A stretch of DNA of 64,000 nt from Parvularia atlantis (lineage: Eukaryota > Opisthokonta > Rotosphaerida): positions 1 to 64,000 of the forward strand of contig CALSCO010001030.1 of assembly GCA_943704415.1 (NCBI GenBank), read 5' to 3'. Each line of letters opens with the position of its first letter. The first letter of the stretch is position 1. The position numbers were made by a program, and so were the translations under genes. Below the pieces are notes generated by a model. That model was not told the DNA's origin. It saw only the letters and a program-made list of their open reading frames with translations, and ran no database searches. Shown here one piece after another: positions 910 to 49,629 of this stretch.

Positions 910-2413
910 ATGGCGGCGACGATGCGCGTCCTCGACCGCGCGTTTGACGAACTCGACCTGTGCGCTGCTGCCGCCCGCGTGCGTGGCGGGCTGCTGAAGC
1001 GTGCGCGAACGCAGCGACGAGGTTGGCTTTGCCATGGACGACGCGCCGGGCCCGGGCAGCGAGCCGTACGCGCCGTTCGTCGTGCGCGAGGGCACCAAGC
1101 TCGGCATCCCTTTCGGTGCGGCGAGCGCAACGCGCGCGCGGGACGGCCGGCCGGCTGAGTAGCGCGCAGACCTCGTGGGTGAGCTGTACCCGTACGCACT
1201 CGCGAGGCTACTGGAGGCTGTGCGCGCGGGGACAGTCGACGCCGCGGCGATGAGCCACGCGCGCGCGCTGCTGCTCGTCAACGGCGACCTGCTGGTGGCG
1301 TGGAACGTGCGGTGCGCGTGCGCGTGCAGAGCTGCAGCTGCTTGTCTGATCTGTGTGACATGGAGATAGCAAGCAGCGCCTGCTGGCTGCGGCGACGGAC
1401 GACGACTGGCTGCGCGAGCGCGCGCTCGTCGACCTCGTTTTCACTAAGCACCCGAAGATGCAGGAGGCGTGGAATCACCGGTGCGGGGCGCCCGCGTGCG
1501 CGTCTCGAAACGTTGCTCACGCGTGGTTTGTCCAGACGCCTCGTACTGCAGCGCCTGCTGGCCGGGCGGGCGGCGAGCGGCGACGGTGGGCGGGCAGTGC
1601 TGCAGGTGGCTGCCTGTGTTGTTCGGGCGCGCGCGGCGCTGCTGACCGTGCGCGACCGCCACAGCACGAGCTGCGCGTGTGTGAGCGTGTGTGCGACGTC
1701 TACCCGAAGAACTACATGGCGTGGACGCACCGTCTGCACGTTCTGCACCGCATCGCGGCGGGCGGGCACGACAACGTGCGTGCCGTGCCGAGCGCGTGGG
1801 CTGCGCGGCCGTGCTGACCGCCGCCTGCCAGCTGCTGCTCGGCGAGCTGGCGTTCAGCGAGCGCTGGGTGCCCGGCCACCTGAGCGACCACGCGCTCGTG
1901 CACTACCGCGAGCAGACGCTGCTTATACGCACGCTGGCACTGCTCGGCGCGCGGGCCGCCGCCGACGACCTGCGTAACCCATGGCAAGAGTTGGACGCGC
2001 TCAGCCGCGAGGCACGAGCACCCGCGGCAGACGTGCTGGCCGCCGTGCGAGAGCTGTGGCGCGGCGCCTGGGCGCTGTCGACGCGGGTGCGTTGGCACTG
2101 TGAGCGCGGGCTGCGCCTGACGCGACGCAGACGTTGGAGGACTACCCGGGCCACGAGGCGCAGTGGGCGCACCGTCGCTTCCTGGCGCGGAGCAGCCGCC
2201 TGCTCGCGCGCATCGGGGCCAACCCGCACGAGGCGCCGGGGTGGGCCGGTGGGCGGCTGCTGCTTGCTTCGCATGTGCCGTCGCTGACGATGCTCGGCAG
2301 ACGACGAGGCAGCCTGGCTGCAGGCGCTGCTTGGCGACCCGGCGCACACGGCGTCGTACGCCCAGCAGCGTCGCTGGGCGCTGTCGTACGGGAGTCACTT
2401 GGTTGCACTGTGA
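910..2413 (+). CDS. PTAR1: PTAR1-like protein prenyltransferase alpha-subunit repeat protein
   Basis: Once about seven short introns are removed, the protein carries tandem PFTA repeats with W-x-H-R cores: VAWNVR, EAWNHR, YPKNYMAWTHRL and YPGHEAQWAHRRFL. Between the later repeats lies GHLSDHALVHYREQTLL, which matches the conserved segment of animal PTAR1 (SDH..HYR). PTAR1 is the alpha-type partner of RabGGTase beta in GGTase-3, which adds a geranylgeranyl group to SNAREs such as Ykt6. The order and spacing of repeats fit PTAR1 better than farnesyltransferase or RabGGTase alpha. The start is the first ATG, opening MAATMRVLDRAFDEL. The stop at 2411-2413 lies only 21 nt before the next gene. Confidence 0.82.
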
Positions 2414-2434
2414 AAAGATTTCACCGGACGAAAG

Positions 2435-3000
2435 ATGGGCCGCAGCGTGCAGGCCCCGCGCGACGGCGACGCCACGCAGTCAAAGACGCAGAAGAAGAAG
2501 GCGGCCAAGGCGGCCAAGAAGGCGGCGGCCAAGAAGGCCGCGAAGAAGAGCACGGCGGATGCGGCGGATGCGGCGGATGCGGCTGTGGATGCAGGTGAGG
2601 CCGCGGCGGCCGGGCAGACGCAGCTGGCCTACCTGCGCACGTGGAAGACCGCGCGCGACACGTGGAAGTTCAACAAAAAGGACCAGACGTGGCTGCTCAA
2701 GCACGCACTCGATCAGAGCAAGGCACGTCTGTGCCTGCGACCGCGCAAGCGCTTGACGCGCGGCCACAGGTGCCCGATGACGACTTTGACACGCTGCTCG
2801 AGTACGTCGACAGCCTGCGCGGCTCGTCGCGCAACGTATGTGGGGGGCCGTGCCTGCCGCCGCCGCCGCGTCCTGACTGTGCGGGGATGCAGATAACGCT
2901 CGACCAGGCCCGCATGGCGCTCAACGCTGAGGACGACGATAATGACGCGGCCACGACACGCCGCGCGCGCGCCGCGCAGCTGGTGAAGGTCCTTGAGTGA
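2435..3000 (+). CDS. WKF-domain protein (C7orf50 homologue)
   Basis: A Lys/Ala-rich basic leader (repeated AAKKAA) precedes LRTWKTARDTWKFNKKDQT, then WLLKH and, after an intron, VPDDDFDTLLEYVDSL. This is the WKF (DUF2373) domain of human C7orf50 and its relatives, small basic nucleolar proteins of unsettled function, probably linked to ribosome biogenesis. The last exon is Ala/Asp-rich and ends QLVKVLE. The first intron seems to have a GC donor (AAG followed by GCACGT at about 2720) with a normal CAG acceptor. The second is a usual GT-AG intron at about 2836-2891. Confidence 0.78.
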
Positions 3001-13477: not shown

Positions 13478-15769
13478 ATGGATGCGCAGCCCGCGCCGCT
13501 CGCGCGCGGCGAGCCCATCAACCTGACGATCCGCACGGCCGCCGCGACGATCCGCGCCGAGACGCCGCTGCTGCACGTGCTGCAGCGCGAGGGGCGGACG
13601 GCCGCGGCCGACGGCGGCACCGCTTCGAGCACGCACAGAGTGGCCGATGTGGCACCTTCACCGGCCAACGACGCATCCTGGCGGCGCCCGCCCGAGCCCG
13701 CCCGGCCCCCGGCGCCTCTGCTTTACTCGCCGCACGACGTCGAGCGCCACTCGGCCGCCGCAGAGCTGCAGAGCATCCATCGCGCTTTCACCGGCGCGGC
13801 CGCGGCCGCCGCACCCGATTTCGCCGCCCAGGGCCATCGCCGCTTCGTGCAGCTGCAGTCGCGCGGTCCGGGGCCCGCCAAGCCCGAGCCGAGGCCGGCC
13901 GCCGCGCCGGGCGGGCCGCGCCCGTTCTCGTTCCAGCGGCCGGTGTACTGGGGCGCCATTGTCAGGCCGCCGACGAGCCCGCTGCCGCCCGTGGTCCCAC
14001 CGCCGCTAGGCAACCGCATCGTCACGGACGTGCGGCGTGCAGCGGACGCTGCCGTGCGCCCGCCGGAGCCGAACGGAGCGTCGCACCCGCCCGCTCGCAG
14101 CCTCGACCGAGACCGCGACCGAGACCGCAGCCGCAGCCGCAGCCGCAGCCGCAGCCTCAGCCGGGGACGCGCCGTGCGGTCGTCCAGCCGCAGCAGCAGG
14201 AGCCCGCTTGGGCAGAGGCGGCGGAGCACGAGCCCGGCCGGCGGCAGCAGCCCGGTCCGCGGCCGCGCGCGCGTCACGCTCCGGGGACGCAGCCACAGCC
14301 GCAGCCCGAGCCGCGGGCGCAGCACCAGCCGCAGCAGGAGCAGGAGTACGAGCCACGGCAGAAGCCGCAGCCGCAGCCGAAGCCGAAGCCGAAGCCGCGG
14401 CCGCGGCCGCACGCACCGGCGCAGCACGAGCTCGGGCAGCCTGAGCCGGCGCAGCTGGAGCAGCCGCAGCCGCAGCTCCAGTCGCAGCCGCAGCCGAAGC
14501 CGCGGCCGACGGAACCGCGGCGGCAGCCGCTCGCCCAGTCGGACACGGACCGCGGCCCCGGAAAAGCCGCCCGCGCCCGCGCCCGCCCCCGCCGCGCCCA
14601 TGATCAGCCCCGCGTTCAAGGCGTCGTTTATGCCAATCTCGCCCGAGGCGCTGATGCCGGCCGCCCTAGTTCCATCGGCCCCGCGAGTCGTCGAAGTTAC
14701 GCGCGGCTTGGACGTGCCGCCACAGCCGCCTTTCATTGTCATACCGCGCCGCGTGAGCTCAAGCTCAAGTGTGCTTCCCGGCGCAACGACTTTGCCCGTG
14801 CCGCTGGCGATGCTTCGGCCACCCGTGCCTCTTGCCATGCTGACGCCGCCTGCGTCGGTGCCGCAGCCCGTGCCGGTGCTGCGGCTGGTGGCGCAGCCGG
14901 GACCGGTGGCGCAGCCGGTGCTGGTGCCGCGCAATGTGTTTGACAGCCCGGATCCGATGGACCTCGGCGAGTCGCTCGTGCTGACGCCCGTGCAGGACAC
15001 CGTCGGGCCACCGCCAACTGCACCGCCGCCGGTCGTCGCACCGCCGAGGCGCGCGCCCGTGCCCGCGATCGTGCTGGACGACGACTTACCGGACAGCGAC
15101 GCGGTGCCGATGGACCTGACCGACACGCCGCCGCCCGCGTCGCCCATGGACAGCGCAGCGATGCCAGAACTGGGGCCGAAGCGCTCGGGCATGTTTGCGC
15201 GGCGCGTCGTCGTCACCAACGGCCGGCGCGAGTCTGTCAGCGAAGCTGCCGAGCGCGCCGCTGCCGACAGTGCCGCCGCTGAGCACCTGACTGAAAGCGC
15301 AGCAGCTGCCGAGCGCACCCTTGCGCCGTCACTTGGCCTGGCAATGGCGACCACGGATGAGGCGCCCGAACCCAGCGCTGCGAAGCCAACGCCGGCCGTC
15401 GAGAGCACCACCACCGCGACAGCCAGCACGATCGCTGCCCCAGGCCCCCCAAGGCCACGCCGGAAGCGTGTCGCGCTCACGGCTCAGCGATGCGCCAACG
15501 ACAGTAACTTTTACGTCGACTTGTTCCGCCAGGCGTTGCACCTGCGCGCGCAGCAGGGCGCGCCGCCGCCCGACGCCGCGCACGTCGTGCTGAGCATCGA
15601 CGGGTACGTCTGGTACGAGTACAACCCGGCAGACCTCCACCGGGCGTTGGAAGAGCGCCTGGACGAGCGCCAGCGCCTAATCGTCCTGGCCAAGCGCGAG
15701 CTCGCGCGGCTAAGGAGCGCCTCGCGGACGGCGAGCGCGGAAGCTAGACCGTCTACTAGCCAATCTTAA
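13478..15769 (+). CDS. Intronless RS-rich low-complexity protein (about 763 aa)
   Basis: Translation from the ATG at 13478 (MDAQPAPLARGEPINLTI) is open to the TAA at 15767-15769 with no intron. Residues 1-200 are Ala/Pro-rich. At about 205-340 there is an Arg-Ser domain (repeats of DRD and RSRSRS) like those of splicing regulators. The middle is Pro/Ala/Val-rich. The last 90 residues are more normal in composition, with ANDSNFYVDLFRQALHLRAQ, AHVVLSIDGYVWYEYNP and a helix RALEERLDERQRLIVLAKRE. I do not recognise this C-terminal module. The RS domain suggests a nuclear or RNA-processing role (inference). Absence of introns is unusual here. Confidence 0.7.
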   Translation: MDAQPAPLARGEPINLTIRTAAATIRAETPLLHVLQREGRTAAADGGTASSTHRVADVAPSPANDASWRRPPEPARPPAPLLYSPHDVERHSAAAELQSIHRAFTGAAAAAAPDFAAQGHRRFVQLQSRGPGPAKPEPRPAAAPGGPRPFSFQRPVYWGAIVRPPTSPLPPVVPPPLGNRIVTDVRRAADAAVRPPEPNGASHPPARSLDRDRDRDRSRSRSRSRSLSRGRAVRSSSRSSRSPLGQRRRSTSPAGGSSPVRGRARVTLRGRSHSRSPSRGRSTSRSRSRSTSHGRSRSRSRSRSRSRGRGRTHRRSTSSGSLSRRSWSSRSRSSSRSRSRSRGRRNRGGSRSPSRTRTAAPEKPPAPAPAPAAPMISPAFKASFMPISPEALMPAALVPSAPRVVEVTRGLDVPPQPPFIVIPRRVSSSSSVLPGATTLPVPLAMLRPPVPLAMLTPPASVPQPVPVLRLVAQPGPVAQPVLVPRNVFDSPDPMDLGESLVLTPVQDTVGPPPTAPPPVVAPPRRAPVPAIVLDDDLPDSDAVPMDLTDTPPPASPMDSAAMPELGPKRSGMFARRVVVTNGRRESVSEAAERAAADSAAAEHLTESAAAAERTLAPSLGLAMATTDEAPEPSAAKPTPAVESTTTATASTIAAPGPPRPRRKRVALTAQRCANDSNFYVDLFRQALHLRAQQGAPPPDAAHVVLSIDGYVWYEYNPADLHRALEERLDERQRLIVLAKRELARLRSASRTASAEARPSTSQS
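14107..14530 (+). repeat. Low-complexity tract coding for the RS domain
   Basis: Short units close to CGCAGC, CAGCCG and GAGCCG recur for about 400 nt. In the gene frame they give Arg-Ser and Arg-Gly repeats, and in the next frame Pro-Gln repeats. Repeat expansion probably built the RS domain. Confidence 0.75.
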
Positions 15770-15834
15770 CGTGATGTACACTTTGTCGCTTGCAAAAGTC
15801 GCGCCTGTCATCAACCTCGTTGAGCCGAAGGCGC

Positions 15835-16873
15835 ATGCGCGTCTTTTCGTGCACCTGGGGCTGCAGCGGTGCGGCCGGCAGCGCGTCGGTCCGGGCCTTC
15901 GCCTGGACCGTCGCGGCCGACCACACCGCCCGCCCCGCTGGCGCCGCAGCGTCCTCCGCCCCGGTGCGCCGCGCGGCGCGAACGGCCCGGCGCGCCCTCA
16001 CACGCCCGGCGCAGCGCGTTGAGGACCTCCGCCGAGCCCGCGCCCCTGCGCGCCCCCACCGCCACCGCGCGGCCAAGCGCTCGCGCTGCGCTCCTGCGCC
16101 GTCCCCGCCGGCCGCGGTATTCCGGTGGGGCACGCGCTTGCTCGGCCGGCAACCAGGCTGACACGCGCTGTCGCAGCCCGGCCGACTTCCCGCCGCTGCC
16201 GTCGCGCGCCGCGCCCACCGCCCCGCGCGCCGCCCCCGCCCCGGCCGCCCCGCCCGCACGGCCCGTCGCCGTCGCGCAGCTCGTCAAGGCCGCGCCGCCA
16301 GCCGACGTCGCACAACGCCCCTACAGCCAGGTCGCCGGCGCCGCCGACTCGCACCGCGCGGCCCTGGCCGCCGCCTCGGCCGCCGCTGCCGCTGCCCGCG
16401 CCCCGCTGCCCGCGACACGCCTCGCGCCGCTCACGCGCAAGCTCGTGCGCGTCATCCGCGACGACCTCGCGTGCGTCCCCGCGCCGCCCGTGCGCCCGTC
16501 GCCCGCGACCGTCTCTGCGCCGGCGGCGGCACCGCTGCCCGCCCGCCCGCGCGCACTGCGTTCGCTCCCGCGCGCTGTCACGCTCTTCCGTGCGCGCCAC
16601 CGTCACGTCGCGTGCGTGCGTCGCCTCGCGCCGAGTGCCTTCCTCTCGCGGCGCCTCATTCAGGTGCGCGCAAGGTTGCATTGCTGTGCGCTCAGCACTC
16701 ATCTGCCGCAGCGCATGGTCCGCGCCACGACGTCCACCGCGCTGCTGCGCCAGTACAACTTGCTGCGCCCGTCGTGGGCGCTCGTCGGTGCGGCGCCTCC
16801 GGCTCTGTGAGCGGCCCGACTGACCGCACACGCGCGCACAGACGGCGGCTGGCGCCCGCAGGCCGCTTGCTGA
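15835..16873 (+). CDS. Hypothetical Ala/Pro/Arg-rich protein
   Basis: No family is recognised. The clearest part is an exon from about 16176 preceded by a textbook acceptor (GGCTGACACGCGCTGTCGCAG). It encodes PADFPPLPSRAAPTAP, VAVAQLVKAAPPADVAQRPY, SQVAGAADS and LTRKLVRVIRDDLA. Two more introns lead to RMVRATTSTALLRQYNLL, RPSWALV and DGGWRPQAAC before the TGA at 16871-16873. The upstream exon from the ATG at 15835 is in phase but compositionally poor, so the start is uncertain and an ATG at 15774 is an alternative. DFPPL-type motifs occur in proteins that bind translation factors, which is only a hint. Confidence 0.42.
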
Positions 16874-16921: not shown

Positions 16922-19142
16922 ATGCAAGCCCACATCAACCCGTCCCTCGCCGAAGTCACCCGCCGCCTGCTCGACGGCGAGGGCAACATGATCCCCGTCT
17001 TCCGCCAGCTCAACGCCGACCTGCTCACGCCCGTGTCGGTGCGTGCACACAGCCGTCGCTGCCGCTGCGGCAGTGCACTCACCGCCGTCCGTGCCAGGCC
17101 TACCTTAAGATCGCCAAGGGCGCCACGCACTCGTTCCTGCTTGAGTCGATCGCGGGCGGCGAGCGCGTGAGCCGCTACTCGTTCATCGGCGCCAACCCGC
17201 GCAAGATCATCGCCACCGGTCCGAACGAGGCGGTGCAGGGTGCGCCGAGCCACCGTCACGCTGCAAGATGGCGCCGCTCAGACGCGCGTGTGGCGCAGGC
17301 GACCCGCTCGCCGTGCTGGAGCCGCTGCTGCGCGACGTGCGCTACATGCGCGTGCAGGGCCTGCCCGCGTTCACTGGCGGCGCCGTCGGCTACATTTCGT
17401 ACGACTGCGTGCGGCACTTTGAGCCGCGCACGGTACGCCCGCTCAAGGTGCGCAGCGCGCATGTCCCCCCGCGCACCGGTGTGACGCACGCTCGCACGCG
17501 GCGCAGGACGTGCTGCAGATCCCCGAGGCCGTGCTCATGTTCTGCGACACGATCATCGTCTTTGACCACGCGTGGCAGACGATCAAGGTGGGTGCGCACA
17601 GGCTCTGCTGTACTGAAAGGCTTGCTCACGCGCGCCGCGTTCCAGGTCGTCGCGCACGTCTCGCACAACGCCACTGCAGGCACCGACCGCGCTGCCAGCG
17701 AGACCGCCATCGCCGAGGCGTACGCGCAGGCGTCCACAGCGATCGACACGCTGCTGCGCGCACTGCAGGACCCGCACGTGCCGCTGCCACAGCAGGGCAC
17801 CGTAACGTCAAGCCCCGAGGTGGGCGACGACGCGCTGCGACTTGGCTTCACGCTGACTGCGCCGTGCAGCCCGTCTCGAACGTCGGGCAGCAGGGCTACG
17901 AGGACATTGTGCGCAGCCTTAAGCACTTTATCCACGAGGGCGACATTATCCAGGCCGTGCCGTCGCAGCGCCTCGGTGTGCCCTCGCTTGTGCTGCTCAC
18001 GCCGGGCTCATCCGCTCGCGCCGTCAGCACGCCCGACCGAGCTGCACCCGTTCAACCTGTACCGACACCTGCGCTGCGTTAACCCGTCGCCGTACATGTT
18101 CTACGTCGACCTGAAGGACTTCCAGCTGATCGGCGCGTCGCCTGAGGCCATGGTCAAGGTCAGCGCCGACGGCCACTGGCGACGTCGGCGGTCTGACGCG
18201 CCCGGGCCACGCAGGTCACCAACGGCGAGGTCGAGACCCACCCGATCGCGGGCACACGCCGACGCGGCCGCACGCCCGAGGAGGACGTCGCGCTCGAGAA
18301 AGAGCTGCTCGCGGACGAAAAGGTGGCGGCGTGGTGCACCGGCAGCCTCGCTGACGCCGCCACCGTACGCAGGAGCGCGCTGAGCATATCATGCTCGTCG
18401 ACCTCGGCCGCAACGACGTCAACCGCGTCTGCGTGCCGTCTACCGTGCGCGTGGAGGACCTGATGCACGTGCAGCGCTTCTCGCACGTCATGCACATCGT
18501 CAGGTGCGCCTCCGCCCGGCGACACGCGGACGCCGCTCACATCGCGCTGGCGCATGCACGCGCAGTCGCGTGCTCGGCCAACTGCGCGCGGAGTGCACGC
18601 CGTTCGACGCCTTCCGCTCGATCTTCCCGGCCGGGACCGTGTCGGGCGCGCCGAAGGTCAGTCGCGTGCGGCATGCGCCCTCACACAGGAAGCGTTGACC
18701 CGACCGGCCGCAGATCCGCGCGATCGAGCTCATCAGCGAGCACGAGAAGGAGTGCCGCGGGGTCTACGCCGGCGCAGTCGGCTACTTTAGGTGCGCGCAG
18801 CCGCCAGTTCGCGCGATCTGCTCACGCGGTGGGCGCCGGCCCAGCTACTCGGGCGACATCGACACGTGCATCGCCATCCGCACGATCCTGCACAAGAACC
18901 GCACGCTGTACCTGCAGGCCGGTGCGGGCATCGTCTTCGACTCGGACCCGACGGCCGAGTACGAGGAGACGATTGCGAAGCTCAACGCGAACCTGGCTGC
19001 CATTCGCTCGGCAGAGCAGACGTACGCGGCACCGCTCGGTGCGTCGCGCGTGCCTGTGCGTGCGCTGGCACGCTGACGGTGCGCAGAGGGCGAGCAGGAC
19101 GGCTCGTCGGCCAGCAAGCGCCGGAAGCAGTCGCGCAAGTAG
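16922..19142 (+). CDS. trpE: Anthranilate synthase component I (TrpE)
   Basis: TrpE converts chorismate to anthranilate with ammonia supplied by TrpG. Exons in order give [36 protein letters not shown] (carrying the LLES segment of the tryptophan feedback site), [106 protein letters not shown] and [19 protein letters not shown]. All chorismate-binding signatures are present. Ten or so introns interrupt it. The N terminus [17 protein letters not shown] shows no transit peptide, so it is probably cytosolic. The stop TAG at 19140-19142 lies 11 nt before trpG. Confidence 0.93.
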
Positions 19143-19153
19143 ACACGCCCACC

Positions 19154-20014
19154 ATGGCAGCGGTCCACAACGGCGGCAGCAGCGGCGAGCGCGCCGCCCC
19201 GCGCGTGCTGCTGATCGACAACTACGACAGCTTCACGTGGAACGTCTACCAGTACCTCGAACTGGCGGGGGCGCGTGTGACCGTGCACCGCAACGACAAG
19301 GTGCGCGCGGAGTCGCACCCAACGTCGGCTAGCTCATCGTTGTTGCGACAGATTACCGTGCAAGAGTGCGAGGCGCTCCAGCCGACCCACATCGTCATCT
19401 CGCCAGGGCCCGGCCGCCCAGCCGACGCCGCCGTGTCGAACGACGTGATCCGCACGTTCGCGGGGCACGTGCCCATCCTCGGCGTGTGCCTGGGCGAGCA
19501 GTGCATGTACGAGCTGTACGGCGGCGTGGTGCGTGTGCGCGCGGGGGTTCGACGCCCGCCGACATCAACGCGCAGGTGACCTACGCCGGCGAGATCAGGC
19601 ACGGCAAGACCGCGCCCGTGTCGCACGACGGCCGCGGTGTGTTCAAGAACGTGCCGGACAACATCGAGATCATTCGGTACCACTCGCTCGCCGGTGCGCA
19701 TCGCGTGCAAGCGGTGTCGGCGCTCTCGCTGACGTGCGCTGACCGCAGGGGACCCGGCGACGCTGCCTGCCGTGCTGGAGATCACAGCGCGCACGGCCAA
19801 CGGCATCGTCATGGGCGTGCGGCACCGCGAGCTGATCGTCGAAGGCGAGCGCGCACGAGGGCACACGCCGTGTGCGCAGGCTGACGAGACACGCACAGGC
19901 GTGCAGTTCCACCCCGAGTCGATCAAGAGCGAGGGCGGCCTGACAATGTTTAGGAACTTTTTGAGCTGGTCCGGCGGGCGCTGGAAGGATCTGCCGCCAA
20001 GCGCGTCATTCTGA
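19154..20014 (+). CDS. trpG: Anthranilate synthase glutamine amidotransferase (TrpG)
   Basis: TrpG releases ammonia from glutamine for TrpE. The start has a strong Kozak context (CCACCATGG) and is followed by [19 protein letters not shown]. The nucleophile Cys lies in [17 protein letters not shown], the oxyanion-side motif is [12 protein letters not shown], and the catalytic His and Glu lie in [13 protein letters not shown]. Three or four introns are present. The end, [13 protein letters not shown], is where fungal TrpG-TrpC-TrpF proteins continue into the next enzyme. Here a TGA stops translation at 20012-20014, after [10 protein letters not shown]. It is co-directional with trpE and trpC and within tens of nucleotides of both. 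Confidence 0.92.
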
Positions 20015-20016
20015 GC

Positions 20017-20065
20017 GTATGCGCGGGTCCTGCGGTCTGAGCGCTCAAGCTAACCGCGGGCGCAG
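20017..20065 (+). other. Intron-like element between trpG and trpC
   Basis: A 49-nt stretch runs from GTATGC to GGCGCAG, with a near-perfect branch motif GCTAACC 15-20 nt before the acceptor. It starts 2 nt after the trpG stop. Removing it leaves 9 nt between the TGA and the trpC ATG, and the two frames become the same: TGA, then codons for Ala-Arg-Pro, then Met-Ala-Gln-Pro. An intron that lies outside both coding frames suggests one transcript covering both genes, or a trpC 5'-leader intron (inference). Confidence 0.5.
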
Positions 20066-20072
20066 ACGACCG

Positions 20073-21236
20073 ATGGCGCAGCCGACCATTCTCGAGCGCA
20101 TCGTGCAGCAGCGGCGGCTCGACGTGGCCGCTGCCAAAGAGCGCGAGCCGCTCGAGGCGCTACGTGTGCGCGTCACGACGTCGGCTCCGGCGGCAATCGA
20201 CTTTCACGCGCGGGTGCGGCAGCGATTGCGTCGCGATGAGCACCTCGCTCATGCGCAGCCTCTCGCCAGCTTCTGCGCGCCGTGCAGCCGCCAGCGAGCC
20301 ACGTCGCCGTGATTGGCGAGATCAAGCGCGCGTCGCCGTCCAGAGGAGGCACGTCGCGGTGGTGGGCCTCCAGATGCGCAGCCGCGCTCACACACCGCGC
20401 GCCCGCAGACATCGCACCGGGAGCCGATGCGCTGGCCACTGCCCTGACATATGCGCACGCGGGTGCGGCCGCGATCTCGGTCCTCACCGAGCCGACGTGG
20501 TTCAAGGTGCGCTGCGCACGCTGCTGCTGCCGCGCTGCACCGCGACACTCACGGGATGGGCAGGGCCACCTCGAGGACCTGCGGGAGGCGCGCGCGGCTA
20601 TCGAGCGCAAAGTTGGCGCCGACGCGCGCCCGGCGTTCTTGCGGAAGGACTTTATCGTTGACGAGTACCAGGTCGCGTCTTGGGAGCCCCATTTACTCGG
20701 CCCGCTGAGCGTGCGCGCCCAGGTGCTCGAGGCGCGTGTCGCCGGCGCCGACACGGTGCTGCTGATCGTCGCGTGCCTGTCGGACGACGAGCTGCGCGAG
20801 TTGATGCGCACGTCCCGCGCCCTGGGTATGGAGCCGCTGGTGGAGGTAAACAACGCCGACGAGGTGTGTGCATGCGACCTGTGCGGCATAAGCATGCTGA
20901 CGGCCGGACGCAGATGCGGCGCGCGCTGGCGCTGGGCTCGCGCGTGATCGGCGTCAACAACCGCAACTTGCACAGCTTCACGGTTGACATGAACACGACG
21001 TCGTCGCTGGTGCGGTGTCCTGCGGTGCGCCGCGCTCGCGCTGACGCCTGCCCGGCCAGGCCGAAATGATCTCGCGGGACGGCGACGTGGTGCTCGCGGC
21101 GCTGTCGGGCATCACCGGCCGCGCCGACGTGGCCGCGTACGAGGCGCAGGGCGTGCGCGCGGTGCTCGTGGGCGAGGCGCTCATGCTGGCGGCCGACAAG
21201 GCCGCGTTCATCCGCGGTCTGCTCACGGCAACATGA
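20073..21236 (+). CDS. trpC: Indole-3-glycerol phosphate synthase (TrpC)
   Basis: This (beta/alpha)8 enzyme makes indole-3-glycerol phosphate from CdRP. The start [20 protein letters not shown] is the standard N-terminal helix. The catalytic lysines appear in [13 protein letters not shown] and [13 protein letters not shown]. The order then continues with [64 protein letters not shown] and [16 protein letters not shown]. It ends [10 protein letters not shown] at the TGA 21234-21236. Five or six introns occur. The stop overlaps the trpF start as ATGA. Confidence 0.92.
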
Positions 21237-22235
21237 CGTTGGTCAAGATCTGCGGCGTGCGCGGCGAGGACGGTGCACGCCCGCCTGCGCCGCGTGCTGC
21301 CCTGCTGGTCGCTGAACATCTGCGCAGCGGCTGTCACTGCAGCCGACGCCGGCTGTGACCTCATCGGCCTGATCTTCGCCGTCTCCAAGCGGCAGGTGGC
21401 CCTCGCGACGGCGCAGGGCATCGCTGCGCGCGTGCGGTCGCCGAACGAGCGTGGCACGGCGCAGCTCGACGACACATCGTACACCGCAGCGGCGCGCTCG
21501 CTGACCGCCGAGCGGATGCGGCTGGGGCGGCCGCTGCTGGTCGGCATCTTTGCGGACCAGCCCGCGGAGCATATCAACGAAATTGCGGGTGCGCCAGCCG
21601 CGCGCGCCGTCGTGTGTGTGCGTGCGGATGCTGACCGGGCGCCCCGCGCAGAGGCCGTGCCGCTCGACCTGGTGCAGCTGCACGGGCTGCACGAGCCCGT
21701 GGACATGCCGGCAAAGGTGCTCGCGAGGTCTGGTGGGCACGGGCGCTGACGGTGCGCGCGTGCAGATCGTGCGGCCGTGCCTGCGCGCGCTGCACGTGCT
21801 CCCGGACGACACGGCGGCGACGGTGCGAGAGCGGTGCGTTGGCTGGAGCAGGAGGAGGTTGTGCTCGCGCTCATCGGTCACACAGGCTGCGCGCGCACGA
21901 GGGCCACGCCGCGCTAAGCCTGCTGGACACGGGTGTCAAGGGCTCTGCGGTACAGGGCGGGAGCGGCAAGGGTGCGCGCGTGCGATGCCGCTCACTGCTG
22001 CCACCGATCTTTGCCGCGCGCAGAGTTTGACTGGTCAATCGCCGCCGAGCTCGCGCGCGAGGGCTTCCCGTTCCTGCTCGCGGGCGGGCTGACGCCGACG
22101 ACGGTCGCGAGCGCTGTGGTGCAGGTGCGGCCGCTGGGCGTGGACGTGTCGAGCGGGGTCGAGGACGCGGCGACGGGACAGAAGGACCTTGGCAAGATTT
22201 GCGCGTTTGTAGCCGCCGCTGCTGTGTCTCGGTGA
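21233..22235 (+). CDS. trpF: Phosphoribosylanthranilate isomerase (TrpF)
   Basis: TrpF converts PRA to CdRP, the substrate of TrpC. The first codons give [13 protein letters not shown] with the catalytic Cys in KICG. After an intron come [20 protein letters not shown], then [64 protein letters not shown] and [19 protein letters not shown]. All family motifs are present, including the catalytic Asp region and the phosphate-binding GVE. The only sensible start is the ATG at 21233, which shares four bases with the trpC stop, because the conserved KICG follows three codons later. The stop at 22233-22235 lies 15 nt before the hydrolase gene. Confidence 0.92.
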
Positions 22236-22250
22236 TCGATCGCGCACCAC

Positions 22251-23321
22251 ATGCTCGTGCACAGCGCGCGCCTGGTGGTGCCCGAGGGCGCGGCGAGCGC
22301 CGTGCGCCTGGCGGTGCGCGTGGGCGTGCCGAGCGTTCCCGGGCCGCGAGCCGCGACAGCGCTGATCATCGCGCATCCGTGGGGGCGCGTGCCGGCTGCG
22401 CGCTCTGCCTCGTCTCGGCTTCTGACGCGCGATGCGCGCCCCGACAGCCCGCTCGGCGGCAACGCCGACAACAACGTCGTCCAGGCCGTGTTTGGGCACT
22501 TTGGGCAGCTTGGGTACACGGTCGCGTGCTTCGACATGCGGTGCGGCGTGGCGCGTGTGGCGATGCGCGATGATGGCGCGGGCTGATCGACGGCGTGCAG
22601 GGGCGCAGGCGCGTCGACCGGCTCGACGTCGTGGACCGGTGCGGCGGCGCACGCGAGCTGCGTGCCGACGGGTGGCATCGCTCACGCGGACGCGGCGCGC
22701 GCGCAGGCGCAAGCGAGGCCGAGGACGTGCGCGCCATTGTGCGGTACGTGCTGAGCGCGCAGGCCGGCACGGCCACGCCGGTCGAGCGCATCGTGCTCTG
22801 CGTGCGTGCGCCACACGCGCGCGCGGCACTGCACCGCTGAGCGTGCCCGGACGCGCGCACCAGGGCTACTCGTACGGCGCCGCCGTCTCGGGCATGGTCG
22901 TCGACGAGTTCCCGCAGATCGTCGGCTACGTCGCGATCGCGTACCCGTTCAGCGTGCTGTGGTCGGTGCCGCGCACCCCGCGGACGGTCCGCCGCTCACG
23001 CGACGCACCGCGCAGGTTCCTCACCTCGCTCACGCACGGCGCGGTCCTGGCGAGGGCGCGCACAGCCAAGCCCAAGCTGTTTGTCCAGGTGTTGCTGATG
23101 CGCGCTTGCTGGCCGCAGCAGCGACTGAGCCCAGAACGGCGGCCGCGCAGGGCGACTGCGACAACTTCACGGGCCGGTCGAGCTACACGTACTACCTCAA
23201 CTCGTTTGCGCAGCCGCTGCAGGTCGAGTGGATCGACGGCGCCGACCACTTCTTCTGGAGCCGCGAGAAGCAGGTGGTGCGCGCGATCGAGCAGTGGCTG
23301 CAGACGGCGTGTCGCCTGTAA
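22251..23321 (+). CDS. Alpha/beta hydrolase fold protein
   Basis: The fold is visible as MLVHSARLVVPEGAASAVRL, ALIIAHPWGR, NNVVQAVFGHFGQLGYTVAC, CFDMRC, the nucleophile elbow GYSYGAAVSGMVVDEF (G-x-S-x-G), VGYVAIAYPFSVLWSV, an acid strand near GDCDNFTG, and the catalytic His in VEWIDGADHFFWSREKQ, ending IEQWLQTACRL. This resembles the small COG2945-type hydrolases found in bacteria and eukaryotes. Substrate is unknown. It follows trpF by 15 nt on the same strand, so it may share the transcript, but the general crowding of this genome makes that weak evidence for a tryptophan role. Four or five introns are present. Confidence 0.8.
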
Positions 23322-33500: not shown

Positions 33501-34998
33501 GAGCGCGTGTCACGCACGGGCCTGCGCGGCCGCCTCGGCCGCGGCGCGCTGGCTGCGCAGGTGCGACATGAGGCCGGCCGCCTTGCCGTCCTTGGCCAAG
33601 ATGTACTCCTTCGCGTCCTCGGACACGATGCGGTTTGACTCGGTGCCGCTGAACAGGCGTGCACGTGTGAGCACGGCCGCGCCCGGGGCGGCGCCGGCAA
33701 CGCACGCAACGCAGTTCTCCTTGCGCAGCACGTCGCGCACCTCGTCCATCTTGCTCCACAGGTTCGAGCGATGCACCGTGTTGCGTATCTGCGCGCCCGG
33801 CGTCAGGGCCTGAGCGAGGCGCGGTTCCACAATGCCACCGCGCCTGCAGCAGCGAAAAATCGGCCGCCGTCGATGTGTTCTCCATGTGCGATCGCAGGCG
33901 CTTCCACGACGTCTCGCGGCTGCGCACGGTCAGCTCGGCGACGATCTCGTGCTGCGCCGCCGCCGCCTCGTGTCAGCGCGCCGTGCGCTCGAACGGGCAG
34001 CGGCACGACTCGCCTGGATCATCGGCGGCAGCGTCGCAAACTCGTCCGAGTGGATGTCGATCGACGTGCCCTCCTCGTCGATGATGAAGCGGAACTCACC
34101 CTTATAGTCGTCGTTGAAGCGCGAGCGCAGCGAGAACGACGGGCTGCGCGGCACATGACGCTCAGCCAGTTTGCGCACACGCGCCGCGCTCCGAGCTCAA
34201 AGCGCACAAGCGCTCCTCGTCCGACTCGGCGCCCTCGACGGCCGGCGGCACCTCAAACTCGTCGCGCTTGCGCTTGCCTGCGCGCGCACATAGGCGGCGT
34301 CACCAACACAAAGGCAAGCAAAGTCCACCGCCCACCATTGCCGGCGCGGCGCACGGCCAGGGCGCCGACATCCGCGTCGGCGTCGGCATTGGCAGTGCCG
34401 CCCGCGTCGTCGTCCGCCGTCGCCTTGGCCTTGCCCTTGCGCGTGCTGAGCCGTGCATGGACGCGTGAGCCGTCGGACGAGCGGCTGCAATCGCCAACGC
34501 AGCGCACCGCGCGGCCGCCAGCGCCTGCGCGCGCAGCTGGTTCGACAGGAGCTTCTCGGCGGTTTTGCGGAAGCTCGTGGCGGTGCGGTCCTGGCGCTTG
34601 CGGCGCTCGCTCTGGCGCGGCGCGGGGGAGGCGGTGAACGCGCAGCCGATCGGGCCAGCAGTTCGCCACGAGCGCACGAGGGTCTTCTGCTTGAGCATCG
34701 GCGCGGCGCCGTCAAAGACAAAGACCGGCCGGACCTTGTAGAACAGGAGCTTGCAGACGCGTCGGAAGAAGCCAAGCAGGTGCGCGTTGCGCAGCAGGTT
34801 GCCCTCGCCGTCACGCATCGCCTTCAAGAACTGGTTGAGCCAGATGCTCGCGTCTGGACGGCGACCGGCTGAGCGCAGCGGACCGATGACGGGCGCGCAC
34901 GCGCGCGCACCGACGGCCAGGCGTTTGCCCGCGAGCGACTCGAGCCGCACGGGGCGCCCCACCGGCTGCAGCAGCGGCCACAGGCCCTGCACGCCCAT
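30514..34998 (-). CDS. XPG/Rad2-family structure-specific endonuclease
   Basis: The N domain starts [20 protein letters not shown], with [17 protein letters not shown] and [18 protein letters not shown] carrying metal-binding Asp residues. A very long spacer follows, with acidic tracts, [20 protein letters not shown] and [16 protein letters not shown]. The I domain reads [56 protein letters not shown] and [21 protein letters not shown] basic tail has repeated PKKKRA-like stretches. The large spacer marks the XPG/Rad2 group of nucleotide excision repair, which makes the 3' incision, as opposed to FEN1 or EXO1. More than ten introns are present. Motif II reads TDDAD where human XPG has TDDSD. 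Confidence 0.88.
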
Positions 34999-35036
34999 CG
35001 CGGTGGCGCTACCGTTCGAAGCTGCGCTCGAATGTT
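34999..35036. promoter_or_regulatory. 38-nt divergent intergenic region, XPG / F-box
   Basis: The opposed starts are 38 nt apart. Two TCGAA boxes occur, TTCGAAGC at 35015-35022 and CTCGAATG at 35027-35034, just before the plus-strand ATG. A shared promoter is inferred. Confidence 0.42.
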
Positions 35037-36610
35037 ATGGCGTCGGCGCGTGTCACCGAGCTCGTCGCGGCCTTTGCGGCGCTGCCGCCGGCTGAGCAGC
35101 GGCGCTTGTGGGTCGCCGCGGTGCGCACATGGTCCGTGCTGAGGGCGCCGCGGCGCGCGCAGCCTGCAGACCGTGCCACCGATTTGGCGCGACGACGCGC
35201 GCACCGCCGCCGCGGTCCTCGCCGACGCGCAGGCCGCGTACGACGCGCGCACGTTCGACGTCGTCGCGCGGCTCCCGCTCGAGCTCGCCGTCGCCGTCTA
35301 CGCGCTGCTCGACACCGCGGCGATGCTCGCCTTCGCGCACGTGTGGTGCCGAGGCGCAGCGCCAAGGCGCGGTGCTGACGGGCTGCGCGCCGCAGGTCAG
35401 CACCGCGTACCGCTGCGTCGCGCACAGCGAGCCTGCGACGCGCCTGCTGCGCGAGCGCCTCCGGGGCCCGCCGCGCCTGGGTGACGGCGAGCTCACGCCG
35501 CGCGAGGCCCAGCGCCTGCTGCACCGCGAGCTGCTGTGGCAGACCGCCGCGTTCCGCTTCACCAACCAGTGGAACCACGACGGGCACACGATCGTGCGCT
35601 GCCGCGACGGGCGGCTGCTCAACACGGCGTTCAGCCGCGACTTTGACAACGCTGCGCTGGTGCTCTACGACCTGACGCGGGCCGACGTGCCGCGGGTGGC
35701 GAGCTTCGTCGACGGCGAGCACTTGCAGATGTCGCTCGTGGATCTGTCGGTGCCGGTCGGCGTCGTCGCGGCCGCGCACTTTCTGCGGTGCGGACCTGCG
35801 CGCGTGTGCGTGGCCGTGCTTGTGGCGCTGACCGAGCACGTGAGAACAGGTGTATGGTCACGCTGTGGCCGCTCAAGATCGGCGACGCCGCGGCGCGGCC
35901 GACGCACCGCTTCGTCGCCCACGCCGACCGCATCACGGCCATCGCGCTCAGCCAGGACCCGGCGCGACCGTGGCTGGCGACCGCGTGCAGCAGCGGCAGT
36001 GTGAGCGTGTGGGACGTGCACACGGCCGAACGCCTGTGCACAATCACGCTCGACGAGCGCGACACGCCCATGTCGCTGCACTGGCGGCCCGCGGCCGCGC
36101 TTGCTGCGGGCGCCGAGCTCGTCGTCGTGCACCACAGCCCGGTCATGCTCAGCGTGCTGCAGGTCGACGCCGGCAGGTGCGAGATTGTGCGCGTCCTGCA
36201 CGAGGGGCCCGTGGCCCTGACCAGGTGCGCTCGCCCGAGGCAAGTCTTCGCTGAAGCGTGGCAGCACACGCAGCCCGCGCGCGCGCACGATTATGGACGC
36301 GCTGCCGGACGGCGAGTACGTGTGCATCAAGGAGAAGCTGGGCACGGCAGCGCTGCTCGGGCGCAGGCGCGCGAGCATCTGGCGATACACGACCGGGCTC
36401 ATGCGGCTCGCCTACTTTGCGGTCGACGGCACGACGCCGCAGCTCAAAACGGAGCTGGAGGTGCCGCGGCAAGGCAGTACGGTCCTGGCCGACCTGCAGT
36501 GCGACGAGACGCGCCTTGTGCTCGTGCGGCACGGCCGTGTTCCCGCGGACAACAGCGTCGTGGTAGTGTACAAGCCGCGCGAGAACACAGCCGTGCCAGC
36601 GGCCGTCTGA
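35037..36610 (+). CDS. F-box-like protein with WD40-like C-terminal half
   Basis: After ARVTELVAAFAALPPAEQRR and an intron, VARLPLELAVAVYALLDTAA plus MLAFAHVWC resembles an F-box (L-P-x-E-L ... L). Next come HRELLWQTAAFRFTNQWN, GHTIVRCRDGRLLNTAFSRD and HLQMSLVDLSVPVGVVAAAH. A blade-like segment follows: THRFVAHADRITAIALSQD, LATACSSGSVSVWDVHTAER. The end is MRLAYFAVDGTTPQ, RQGSTVLADLQCDETRLVL and VVVYKPRENTAVPAAV. F-box proteins recruit substrates to SCF ubiquitin ligases, but the F-box call rests on a weak motif. Only one WD blade is clear. Five introns are present. Confidence 0.6.
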
Positions 36611-36688: not shown

Positions 36689-39600
36689 TCAGCGCACGTC
36701 GCGAACGAAGAGCACCAGCGAGACGAGGCCGATGAGCAGCCAGCCGCCCTGTGGTGCGGCGTGCGCGGGTCAGGCGTCATCGTCGTGGGTCGCGGCGCGC
36801 ACGCGCACGCACGAGCATCGCGCTGAGCGCGTAGAGGTCGATTGTGTAGGCCCAGTTGGGCTTGAACGCAAAGAGGGTGAGCACAGAGCGGCCGGGGACG
36901 TATTCGGGCTGCGCGCGCCGTCAGTCGGTGGACGTGCCGCGCGCGCGCCTCGAGCGGTCACGCACGTCCTCGAGGCCGTACGGGTCAAAGTAGATCCAGA
37001 GGTTGTCAAACTCGTTGACCATGATCGAGTTGAGCGCAAAGCGGAACGGCGACAGGTACGTGATCCACGACACGTACGGCGACATGGCGTCTGTGCGTGG
37101 GCCGGTGAGACACGCCCGTGGCGCGCAGTACGCAGCGAGCGAGCGCACCGATGTTGACCAGCGCATTCTGGAAGAGCATGAAGAACAGCAGCGTGATGAT
37201 CGCGACGAGGTTGGCCAACGACACGTTGCGGATGACGGTTGAGATGCACAAGCAGATGAGGGCCTGGCGGTCCAAGCGCGCGGCCGGGTGAGCACGCGCG
37301 CGCTCGGGCGGCAGGGTCCGCACCGTGACCGAGTTGAACAGGATGAGCACGAGCAGGAAGTGGCCCATCAGCGCCACGTCGCTCTGCAGGCCCGTCATGA
37401 AGTAGACGATCAGGCCGAGCACGCACGCCGGGATGATGCGCAGCGGGACCAGGTCAAACAGGACCTGCCGCACACACTGTCAGCCGCATGCACCGCCCGT
37501 CGCTTCATCCGCCCGCGCGCGCGCGCGCCTTCACGGCGTAGTACGCCGACGGGCGGTAGTAGCCCGACGCACGCTCCTGTGTGAACTGATCGCGCTCGCG
37601 GTTCATAAACTGCGCACACACGCGCACGTGCGGGATGAGCTCGTGCAGCGAGGGACGTGTCGCACGCGGTGCGCGCGTACCCCGATGCTGCTCATGCTGC
37701 CAAAGGCGAGCACGATCAGGATGAACAGCAGCATGCCGATGCGGTTCTGCGTCCCTGCAAAGTCCAGCGTGAGGTTGAAGAAGATGAGCCCGATGAGCAC
37801 TGCAACAGGGTGCACGGGCGTGAGCATCGCGGCACGGCACCGGCCGCAACGCGGCCAACGCACCGCCGCTGATGACGGCAAACAGCAGGTGCATCTGCAG
37901 CAGCAGCGGGTAGCGGTACATGTCGGCGAACGAGCGGCCTAGCGGCGGCGCGCGGCTTGAGCGTGTGGGCGCGCACAAGCAGGCACGCGCGGGCGACGCA
38001 CCCGACAGCACGACCACCTGCGTGAACCACGACGTCGCGTACGTGTCCTTGTACCCGTCGGCGAGCACGGGGCGGTTGCCGAGCAGCGGCTCGGAATCCC
38101 TGCCGGCGGCACGTGAGCAGGCTGGCGCGCGGGAGGGCCGCTCGCTTGTGCACGCACGTCGTGCTCGTCTCGGGCGCCTGCTCGTGCTGCGCAACGCTCT
38201 CGTGCTCCGGCGCGCTCAGGCTCCCATATGCCGGTGGCACCGTCGACCGGTTGACGGAGCCGTACTTTGTGCTGGCCACGACCGAGAACGTGTTTGAGTG
38301 CACGCTGTCGGCAGCGGTCAGGCACTGCAGCACGCGCCACACACAGCCGTCACGCACCTCCGCACACCGCTCGAGTACAGCTTGCTCTCGCGCAAGTACT
38401 TCTGGTACGCGGGCGACTCGACAAAGCGCTGGTGCAGCATGAGCAGCTTGTCCTGCTCCGACACGGTCACGTCGACTGTCGCGCGTCGTGCGTGCGCACG
38501 TCAGCCACGCCACCCGCGTGAGACTGCCGCGCACGCACGGATGAAGTCGGCCGGGTTGAAGTCGTCCGGACACCGGTAGCCGAGCTGCTCAAAGTACTCC
38601 TTCGCGCTGCTCGTCTCGCCGTGGTATATCTGGCGACATGTGCCGCGGGTGCGCCGCATGAGCCGCGCTGCGGACGTGAGCGCGAGCCTGAGTCCGAGCG
38701 CACCGTGTAGCCATTGCCGAGCACGAGCAGGCGGTCGAACGAGAAAAAGATGTCGGAGCGCGGCTGGTGGATCGACATGATGATCGTGCGCTGCTTCTTG
38801 GCCGCGTACGACTTGAGGAAGCGGCAGACCGTGAGTGCGTTGAACGCATCGAGGCCCGAGGTCGGCTGCGGGGCGGTGTCAGCGCGCGCGTGCCGCCAGA
38901 GCGACGTGCGCGCACTTCGTCCAGGAACACGATCGACGGGCCGGTCACGAGCTGGCACGCGATCTGCACGCGGCGCTTCTCGCCGCCCGAGATGCCGCGG
39001 TTGCCTACGCCCACGGTGAGCGCGCAGGCGCAGCACGGTGAACGCCTCACTTGCGCACCAGTCTCGCCGTAGCGGCGGTCGAGGATGTGCTCGATGCCGA
39101 GCTCGAACGCGAGCGACTGGATCCGCTTCTTCTTCTCGTCGGTCTTGACGATCTGCGAGCACAGCAGCGTCAGCGGCGCGCGTGAGCGTGTCTTGTGCGT
39201 GCACACCTCGGGCAGGCGCAGCTGGGCCGCGGCCATGAGCATCTCGCGCACGCTGAGCGTGCCGAGCGCGGCGGGCTCCTGGTCGACGTAGGAGGTGATG
39301 CGGATGAACGAGCTGTCGATGGGCGAGCTGTTGATGGTGACCGTGCCGGTAACGGTGCCGCGCTTGACGCGCTGGGCGAGGATGTCGAGCAGGGTCGTCT
39401 TGCCCGCGCCCGACGCGCCAATGATCGCGAGCACCTGGCCGGGCATGGCGAGGCCGTCAACGCTGTTGACGAGGATCTTGCCGTCTGCGCGCAGGCGCGT
39501 CAGTGCGAGGTGCACACGCGTGCACCCAGGTCGCACCGAGCGTGTAGCTGATGTTCTCAAACAGCAGTGTGTCGTTCGAGAACTGCAGCCCGTTGTCGGC

Positions 39601-41049
39601 CAGCTCGAGGAACTGGATGTCCTTGCCGTCGAGGCCCTTGAACGAGAAGTACTTCTGCTGGTGCCGGCGGTAGATGTACATGCTCAAGAGAAGCGTGCCG
39701 ATGAGCACGACCGAGGCCAGCGCGGCAAAGATAATGCCGCGATAGTTGACCACTTGCTGCAGCACGCGAGAGGCGCCATCAGACGCGCGCACGCGACGCA
39801 CAGCCGGCCGCGCACCTCCACGATCGGCCGCGGCTCGCTCAGGCACTCGCCCGAAATGCACTTCATGCGCAGCGTGTCCGTGATCGACTCGAAGCCGACC
39901 TGCAGGCGAGTGTGAGCCGGCCGAGCTGCGCAGCGGCAACGGCGCACGCGCACCGAGTACAGCTCGCACTCCATCTCGCCGTCGCTGCGCACGCTCGAGC
40001 AGCCAAACTCCGTCAGGCCGACGAGCCCTGCCCGGCCGCGCCTGCAGTGAGCCCGACCGCGCCAGCCTCGTGTCGCGGCGCGCGCACCCTCCTCGACAAA
40101 CTTGATCCAGCGCTGGTCCCAGTACAGATGGCCCGTGAAGTAGCACTTGGTGTCGGCGCACGAGTACATGTAGTAGGCCTCGTCGCCTGCGCCCGCGGGC
40201 TTCAGCACCCGCGCTGATCACCGTGCATTGAGGGGCGCGCGCACCGATCGCCGAGCAGTTGGACACGTCGCAGTAGAAAATCTCGCGCAGCTCGTAGCGC
40301 ACCGGGTTCGTGTTGGCCAGCTCGACGTTGTTCCACAGCTGGAAGTGCCCGACGGCCTGCGAGATGTTCAGGTCCTTGCGGTATATCTCGGCGCGGATGG
40401 ACGTGTTCAGGTAGGCCAGCTCGTCACTCAATTCTGTCGAGCGCGCGCGAACGCGCGTGAGTGTCTCGGCGCGCTGGCACGGGGCAAGGCGCGCGCGCAC
40501 CATGCATGTAGCAGTCAAAGACCTTGTAGTTGACGACGACGGGCGTGATGTCGCACAGCGGGTCCTCGGTCTCGGGCGGGTAGAGCGGCCGGCACGAGTC
40601 GACGGAGCGGCACACTGTGCGCGCCGCTCGCTCGTCAGCACGCGCCGCGTTTGTGGCGGCGGCCCCCTCCGCGCACGGTCGCAGTTGCGGCCGGCCCACT
40701 GCGGCGGGCACCAGCACGCGTGGATCAGGCCCGAGCGGTCCGTCTCGTTGGCGTTCATCATGTAGCCGCCGTTGAGGCAGGCGAGACAGTCGCACGTCTC
40801 GGCCGTGACCCAGCCGCACGTCGTCGAATCGTAGCCGTTCGTGCACACGCACGTGCCTGCGCGGCGCGTCCGTGAGCACGCGCCGCGCGCGCCTTGGCGA
40901 GGCGCACCGTTCTGGCACTGGCCGCCGTGCTGACACGGCTCGGTCGCCTGGTCCGACAGCGGCGAGCAGTCCTGCGCCGCGGCCGGGCCGAGCATCGCGG
41001 CCGGCACGAGCACCAGCAGCAGCAGCACGAGCGGCAGCGACCGCCGCAT
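36689..41049 (-). CDS. ABCG-type transporter with EGF-like ectodomain (Adp1-like)
   Basis: A signal peptide (RRSLPLVLLLLVLVPAAMLG) leads to two Cys-rich EGF-like modules (CQHGGQCQNGA, GTCVCTNGYDSTTC, then CLACLNGG, CWCPPQWAGRNC). A luminal region follows, and then a span (GIIFAALASVVLIGTLLLS). The nucleotide-binding domain has Walker A GASGAGKTT, signature GISGGEKRR, Walker B IVFLDE and PTSGLDAFNAL. The C-terminal ABC2 membrane domain includes RIGMLLFILIVLAFGSM, VLGLIVYFMTGLQ, LVAIITLLFFMLFQNALVN and PYVSWITYLSPFRFALNSIM. It ends LVSLVLFVRDVR. ATPase-first half-transporters with an EGF-bearing N terminus are known as yeast Adp1 and relatives. Substrate is unknown. About twenty introns are present. 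Confidence 0.87.
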
Positions 41050-43810: not shown

Positions 43811-45164
43811 CTACAAAAAGTACTCGGGCACCTCCTGCGCACGCACAACGCGAGCGTGAGGACGTGGCGCCGAGGACGCACGGCATGAGCGCACCTTGTT
43901 GACGTCGACGACGGTGTCGTCCGCCAGCACCGAGCGCGACGACTCCTGGAACATGTTGAAGTGCCTCTCGAGCGTCTCGCTGATCTGCGTGCGCGCGCGC
44001 ATGTGTGAGGTCGGCGTCGTGGTCGGCCGGCGCCGGCGCACCTCGAGGATCGACGCCTTGTTGCCGCAGCGGTAGCAGTAGTTGGGCGCGCTCCACACGG
44101 TCGAGAGCTTGTCGTCAAAGAGCACCTGGTAGCCCTCCTCGCACAGCTGGTGCGCGCGCAGCACGTGTGTCATGCCGTTGGTCTGCAGGAACTTGTTGAC
44201 GACGGTGCGCCCAAACGTGAACCCGGCGCCGCGCGGCGACACGGTGTAGTCCTCCTTCTCGGCGTCGGGGTCGGACCACATGAGGTCGGCCAGCGGCCCG
44301 TCGTGCGGGATCTCTGCGCACGCACGGGTGCGGGCGCGCGTCAGGCCGGGCAGTGCACGCGCGCGGCACGCCACGCACCCTGGAAGCGGTCGATGACGCG
44401 GATCTGGTCGAGCGTCTGCAGTGCGGGCGACAGGCCTGCAGCGCGGTCGATCAGCCGCCGCGACGCGCCGGCAGGCCCGCCGCACCGCCGTGAACGCAGA
44501 AGATGCTGTTGTCGATCACGACCGAGATCGTGAGGAAGTCGAACATGTCGGTGAAGTACTTCCACACGCTCGCGTTGCCGTACTTGCGCATGCACTCGGT
44601 GTAGAAGCCGTAAATCTGCGCGCGGATGCGGCGGCGGCGGCGGCGGCGGTCGGCAACAAGGGCGACGGATGACCGCGGCGCCAGCGCCACACCTGCGATA
44701 TCTCGCGCGTCTCGTGGTTGCCGCGCAGCAGCGTCACGCGCGTCGGGTACCGCAGCTTGAGGCACGTCAGCAGCGAGATCGTCTCAACGCCGTGGTGGCC
44801 CCGGTCGACAAAGTCGCCCAGGAAGAGGTAGTTGGTGTCGGGCACGAAGCCGCCGACCTTGAACAGCTCGAGCACGTCGTAGAACTGGCCGTGCACCTGC
44901 ACGCCGCGCGCGTGTGCGTTGGCCTGGCTGCAGGGCGTGGCGGCTGCGGCAAACGCACGTCGCCCACAACCGTCACAGGCGCTGGGATGTGGTGCACGTT
45001 GCTCTCGTTCAGCAGCACGTCCTTCAGCCGCTCGCACAGGTCGTGCACGAGCTCCTCGCCCTGCCGCCGACCCCCCCTCCCCGCGTCACGCGCCTCGACG
45101 CCCCCGTGCGCCGTGCGCCGCGCACAAGCAGCTCGAGGCACTCGTCCAGGTCGATTGCCGGCAT
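43811..45164 (-). CDS. Ppg1-like PP2A-family serine/threonine phosphatase
   Basis: [13 protein letters not shown] is followed by [167 protein letters not shown] and [12 protein letters not shown]. The end EVPEYFL carries the PP2A-type YFL carboxyl terminus. All metal-binding residues are present. Wording such as [16 protein letters not shown] and [19 protein letters not shown] fits fungal Ppg1 better than PP4 or PP6. In fungi Ppg1 is the catalytic subunit of a STRIPAK/FAR-related complex. GNHET replaces the usual GNHES. Confidence 0.88.
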
Positions 45165-49605: not shown

Positions 49606-49629
49606 TCCTTGTTTTGTTAGACGCGCGTG

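Follow-up and report, generated by a model that had tools for sequence, protein, structure and literature searches.

A trpE-trpG-trpC-trpF cluster in the nucleariid Parvularia atlantis: a probable captured bacterial operon that may be expressed as a polycistron

Introduction

Four trp genes stand side by side on one strand, in the order trpE, trpG, trpC and trpF, in an intron-rich genome of Parvularia atlantis, and the locus raises two questions: where such a cluster came from, and how a eukaryotic cell would express it. Parvularia is a nucleariid, and nucleariids are the sister group of Fungi, in which a trifunctional TrpG-TrpC-TrpF protein occurs. As is generally known, that protein joins these enzymes in the order G-C-F, likewise with no D between G and C; in the window, by which we mean the whole 64,000-nt stretch analysed (contig CALSCO010001030.1, positions 1 to 64,000), the three are encoded by separate ORFs, with trpE directly upstream.

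Bacterial operons have likewise entered other opisthokonts, the enterobactin and thiamine operons of Wickerhamiella and Starmerella being examples cited in PMC13376923. The genes of these captured operons became individually expressed units (PMC11952965), whereas the window keeps a stop-start overlap and has dense introns. According to the same 2025 paper, operon structure was kept in no reported bacterium-to-eukaryote operon transfer (PMC11952965). Within the literature searched, which left most subscription journals out of scope, we found no report of the E-G-C-F cluster or its donor.

Results

Gene content and coordinates

A gene finder was built from codon usage and splice sites of the window itself, and the trp models were then corrected by homology. 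The results showed four complete, separate ORFs on the plus strand, with 27 introns in total. The first, trpE (anthranilate synthase component I; 16922–19142), is a spliced ORF of 518 aa with 12 introns (17039–17097, 17240–17298, 17448–17506, 17588–17645, 17820–17869, 17976–18027, 18159–18214, 18323–18372, 18504–18565, 18657–18713, 18791–18844 and 19039–19086). Its TAG stop is followed by an 11-nt spacer, ACACGCCCACC (19143–19153), and then by trpG (anthranilate synthase glutamine amidotransferase; 19154–20014; 217 aa), which starts in the context CCACCATGG and has four introns (19301–19351, 19529–19575, 19694–19748 and 19845–19898). The trpG stop, TGA at 20012–20014, lies 58 nt before trpC (indole-3-glycerol phosphate synthase; 20073–21236; 279 aa; introns 20214–20269, 20349–20408, 20507–20563, 20672–20722, 20864–20913 and 21010–21059). 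The last gene, trpF (phosphoribosylanthranilate isomerase; 21233–22235; 243 aa; introns 21273–21327, 21589–21651, 21717–21765, 21834–21885 and 21972–22023), overlaps the trpC stop by 4 nt (−4 nt spacing), with the sequence ATGA at 21233–21236, a junction as in bacterial operons. The sequence-only reading had given the same order on one strand at these coordinates, with which the spliced ORFs and Pfam agreed; its distances of 11 nt (E/G) and 58 nt (G/C) and its 4-nt C/F overlap could be read from the sequence, and its several spliceosomal introns per gene were found as 12, 4, 6 and 5, with host-type signals.

The Pfam matches were Anth_synt_I_N (PF04715) and Chorismate_bind (PF00425) for the trpE product (6.6e-93), GATase for trpG (1.6e-52), IGPS for trpC (1.4e-87) and PRAI for trpF (2e-36), and TrpE scored 564 bits against TIGR00564, exceeding the cut-off. 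None of the four spliced ORFs contained an internal stop. By eye we found KICG in TrpF, IKRASPS and LRKDF in TrpC, and GVCLGEQ and FHPES in TrpG, motifs that we take to hold the residues known as catalytic in the Trp families. Because these residues are present, none of the four genes looks like a pseudogene. The trp introns fit the pattern of the ~300 introns in the window (mostly GTGCG donors, CTNAC branch sites and CAG acceptors; median 57 nt), and the two that escape the GT-AG rule, GC-AG introns at 19845–19898 in trpG and 20349–20408 in trpC, are supported by homology. Just upstream of trpE, a long low-complexity gene model with S/R and P/Q repeats (13478–16808) is of uncertain frame; downstream, an alpha/beta hydrolase gene matching Pfam Abhydrolase families (22251–23321, plus strand) starts 15 nt after trpF.

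A compact, intron-dense host genome

At 70% G+C, the window carries ~4.9 introns per kb, which average 58 bp. The published P. atlantis genome has ~4 introns per kb with a mean of 60.67 bp, a density more than twice that of any other genome examined (PMC9492541), and the window matches it in both density and mean length. The cluster thus sits in a eukaryotic setting, with 27 introns of the window's signature and eukaryotic neighbour genes, and bacterial contamination was ruled out on these two grounds.

It had been proposed that the small gaps argue for an operon. This did not hold up, since non-trp gaps in the window are similarly short: start codons of divergent pairs are only 38 nt (34998–35037) and 46 nt (45164–45211) apart, convergent pairs lie 35–78 nt from stop to stop, and tandem pairs are separated by ~20–42 nt. 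The trp gaps are the smallest here, and out of the ordinary among them is only the C/F overlap. Short gaps alone fail to show an operon because the whole genome is equally compact, and they are weak operon evidence in this genome. The features of the cluster that stand out are the C/F overlap and the functional link between the genes.

Several other loci in the window were recorded. In each of the two divergent pairs, two promoters must fit in the gap or lie inside the genes. At 910–3000, only ~20 nt separate a RabGGTase-alpha-like gene from the WKF-domain gene (PF10180) behind it, a very tight tandem pair that the gene finder merges, and at 49605–49630 there are 24 nt between an aminopeptidase-N-like gene and the next gene, whose 169-aa product has no Pfam match. 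A protein encoded at 128–828 has a nucleoplasmin-like domain (PF17800) and lacks the FKBP domain usual in its fungal relatives, and an ABCG-type transporter (36689–41049) has N-terminal EGF-like repeats and resembles fungal Adp1.

Bacterial relatives of the four enzymes

A search of prokaryotic genomes with a G-C query returned a bacterial TrpC at 55% (L002), with TrpD, TrpF, TrpB and TrpA as neighbours. The TrpF of L002 starts MTLVKICG, like that of the window, to which it is 44% identical. Within a sample of genomes from the same phylum, identity to G147 was 60% for TrpE, 61% for TrpG and 61% for TrpC, and all four window proteins agree with a single type of bacterial operon; the TrpC matches listed besides G147 and L002's own genome reached ~40–52%. 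The class of G147 includes ~16 genomes with TrpE at 57–60% identity. The G147/L081–L095 clade belongs to the phylum of "Bacterium isolate SCN18_30_10_14", which we take to be probably Chloroflexota. Plasmid-borne relatives came from other phyla and reached at most 45% for TrpE, 46% for TrpC and 39% for TrpF; yeast TRP1 was not found in PLSDB constructs. The viral contigs searched yielded one distant TrpC and no TrpE. Among solved structures, TrpF homologues were only bacterial and archaeal, and no fungal G-C homologue was seen as far as chain names show.

In single-gene trees, the window was placed with the G147-type bacterial clade at an SH-aLRT support of 99 for E, 98 for G and 99 for C. In the concatenation of E, G, C and F, with further members of the class for comparison, the window joined this clade at 100/100, and the TrpF tree alone, with weak support, joined it to another subgroup of the same phylum. 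A topology test did not distinguish a window nested in the clade from a window as its sister (p-AU 0.38).

Operon layout and gene junctions

We fetched 13 operons of the G147-type clade with all their genes. Their order is E, then 1.5–2.3 kb of other genes, then G-D-C-F. In all 11 clade genomes with F directly after C, the two genes overlap by 4 nt (ATGA in nine, GTGA in two), and the window has the same junction in the form ATGA. The window TrpG has the GGxW tail seen in most of the 13 operons, its C-terminus resembling the NFLxxxGGxW of the clade, and an insert before LLVGIF in the window TrpF is also present in the bacterial clade. The ends of the window C and F ORFs coincide with the natural termini of the bacterial homologues, with no C-F linker left. 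Because L097 and Cytobacillus also have a 4-nt C/F overlap, this overlap would mark a bacterial origin in general, not the G147-type clade alone. Between trpE and trpG of one bacterial operon (L081, 3161–4760) we noted NUDIX/carboxymuconolactone-decarboxylase-like and small ORFs; bacterial intervals with such ORFs span 1.5–2.3 kb.

The window cluster resembles the operons of the G147/L081–L095 clade in its E-G-C-F order, ATGA overlap, TrpG tail and TrpF insert, and its E, G and C products are ~60% identical to theirs. It differs from them in having no D, B or A and none of the genes that separate E from G, in its 27 introns and in its location in a eukaryotic contig. A broken fusion ought to have left a linker and would have had to form the ATGA junction anew; the simplest reading is a captured operon that lacks D. 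These comparisons indicate that the cluster very probably originated as a captured bacterial trp operon that was intronised and lost trpD; trees, order and the shared stop-start overlap sharpen the earlier description of an operon-like cluster to one of descent from a bacterial operon.

A candidate intron between trpG and trpC

Most of the 58-nt gap between trpG and trpC, ~49 nt, looks like an intron (20017–20065, plus strand; GTATGC...CTAAC...CAG), located between the trpG stop and the trpC start. Among introns of the window it ranks at the 20th percentile with a score of 5.8, a value that ~2% of non-donor GTs reach, and the chance of such a score anywhere in the gap is very roughly 5–10%, that is, moderately unlikely. 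On the plus strand, 5/6 CTAAC sites lie inside gene-finder introns, a count that includes the gene finder's own intron at this junction. The gap thus probably holds a 49-nt intron, whose removal would leave a 9-nt spacer in the mRNA and bring G and C into one frame, interrupted only by the TGA (TGA GCA CGA CCG ATG). Splicing of an intron in this position, with a stop before it and a start after it, would require one pre-mRNA over both ORFs.

Expression of the cluster

The candidate G/C intron and the C/F overlap favour one polycistronic mRNA translated by termination-reinitiation, a reading towards which we lean slightly. Spacers of 11, 9 and −4 nt would fall in the range best for reinitiation, which short spacers favour (PMC11291117), and a 9-bp fungal-derived spacer functions by this route (PMC10352335). 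Polycistrons of Agaricomycetes (PMC4503453), green algae (PMC11291117) and Glarea IGG1/IGG6 (PMC10352335) also consist of separate same-strand ORFs with short spacers, and differ in not being captured trp operons. Glarea IGG6, a shortened derivative of IGG1, works by reinitiation (PMC10352335). In green algae, leaky scanning passes a short, ATG-poor first ORF (PMC11291117), whereas the first ORF of the trp cluster is the 518-codon TrpE.

The non-coding sequence upstream of trpE is AT-richer (42% AT) than the sequence before G, C and F (30–33%), a weak signal; such a stretch is seen before most other genes and, among the trp genes, only before trpE. Equally weakly, ACAAA/TTTGT words, which are enriched after the stops of other genes, follow none of the four trp genes and are present after the hydrolase that comes next to trpF. 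This hydrolase, for which no match was found in bacterial trp loci, may be a fifth cistron, one not of bacterial-operon descent. Counting against a polycistron, reinitiation after an ORF of 518 codons is normally inefficient in eukaryotes.

Other routes of translation were considered. No short, ATG-depleted first ORF of the green-algal type is present: trpE contains nine ATGs, or 0.58 per 100 nt, within the range of other genes (0.85 ± 0.29). Leaky scanning is unlikely because TrpE is long and has these nine ATGs. A −1 ribosomal frameshift at C/F was rejected, as a slippery heptamer was not seen. For a spliced-leader operon of the nematode type, which would need trans-splice acceptors ahead of its downstream ORFs and an SL RNA, no positive sign was seen: Rfam gave no match within the window, and the E/G (11 nt) and C/F (−4 nt) distances are too small for the usual intergenic trans-splice acceptor.

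The captured operon may instead now give separate monocistronic mRNAs, from small promoters inside the upstream genes and with overlapping transcripts. With divergent start codons 38 and 46 nt apart, promoters in this genome evidently take up hardly any space between genes, and given this compactness internal promoters within coding sequence are quite possible; such an outcome would also agree with the 2025 statement that no reported transfer kept operon structure (PMC11952965). We nevertheless consider it unlikely, since the unaltered ATGA and the candidate G/C intron, which follows one stop and precedes the next start, are easier to explain with a shared G-C-F transcript, and no AT-rich non-coding signal precedes G, C or F.

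Alternative origins

The sequence-only reading had also suggested a fusion protein that broke apart, that is, a fungal-type G-C-F fusion split by a stop codon and a frameshift through real fission or sequencing errors. G and C do stand in frame, one TGA apart, once the candidate intron is removed, and use of a weak alternative donor at 20005 (GTCATT) would join the two in frame; this donor scores ~4 log units below GTATGC. A continuous G-C-F frame is absent, with the TGA after G and a −1 frame at C/F, and no intron was seen at the junction that would mend the C/F frame while keeping KICG. A C-F fusion through a 126-nt intron, as modelled by the gene finder, was rejected, as it would delete this catalytic motif. 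Two lesions would have had to hit both domain borders exactly and recreate a bacterial ATGA, the C and F termini are the natural bacterial ones with no linker, and trpE adjoins too, as in an operon. A broken fusion is therefore improbable.

Metabolic gene clusters are generally known to occur in fungi, and four independent eukaryotic genes might likewise have been clustered by chance or selection, but the gene order, the ATGA overlap and the donor clade that E, G and C have in common all point to the bacterial operon, leaving this explanation very improbable.

Discussion

Taken as a whole, the locus is best explained as a captured operon kept as E-G-C-F and expressed as a polycistron with reinitiation, a reading to which we assign a probability of roughly 0.6. 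The trp operon of a bacterium would have been taken up, probably by a nucleariid or by an ancestor shared with Fungi. After capture, the cluster would have lost trpD as well as the genes separating E from G and gained at least 27 spliceosomal introns, with E-G-C-F kept as separate ORFs. One promoter upstream of trpE would now give one pre-mRNA over the cluster, splicing would also remove the candidate G/C intron, and ribosomes would move from E through G and C to F, terminating and reinitiating across spacers of 11, 9 and −4 nt.

The locus appears to keep operon structure, including an overlapping stop/start codon, unlike the transfers summarised in PMC11952965. Captured yeast operons are already known (cited in PMC13376923), and the new element appears to be a variant of horizontal operon transfer that keeps operon structure.

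The cluster may also bear on the origin of the fungal fusion protein. We added provisional S. cerevisiae Trp2 and Trp3 sequences to the trees; window and yeast grouped together inside the bacterial clade (support 99 for E, 96 for G and 76 for C), a result that serves as a lead only. The fungal G-C-F fusion may have an arrangement like that of the window as its ancestor; the G-C fusion would then have arisen by loss of one in-frame TGA and the C-F fusion by a one-base frame change. Tentatively, and at lower confidence than the capture itself, a living relative of Fungi may still carry the captured trp operon as a working polycistron with C/F coupling, the intermediate to the G-C-F fusion in the nucleariid-Fungi ancestor.

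If the yeast grouping holds with real sequences, the transfer would be older than the nucleariid-Fungi split. If the proposed descent is true, the fungal G-C-F fusion would be the fused descendant of a captured operon arrangement. One organism could make it testable how eukaryotic ribosomes handle a captured polycistron, and the same locus could make it testable whether multi-enzyme fusion proteins arise from operons via such intermediates.
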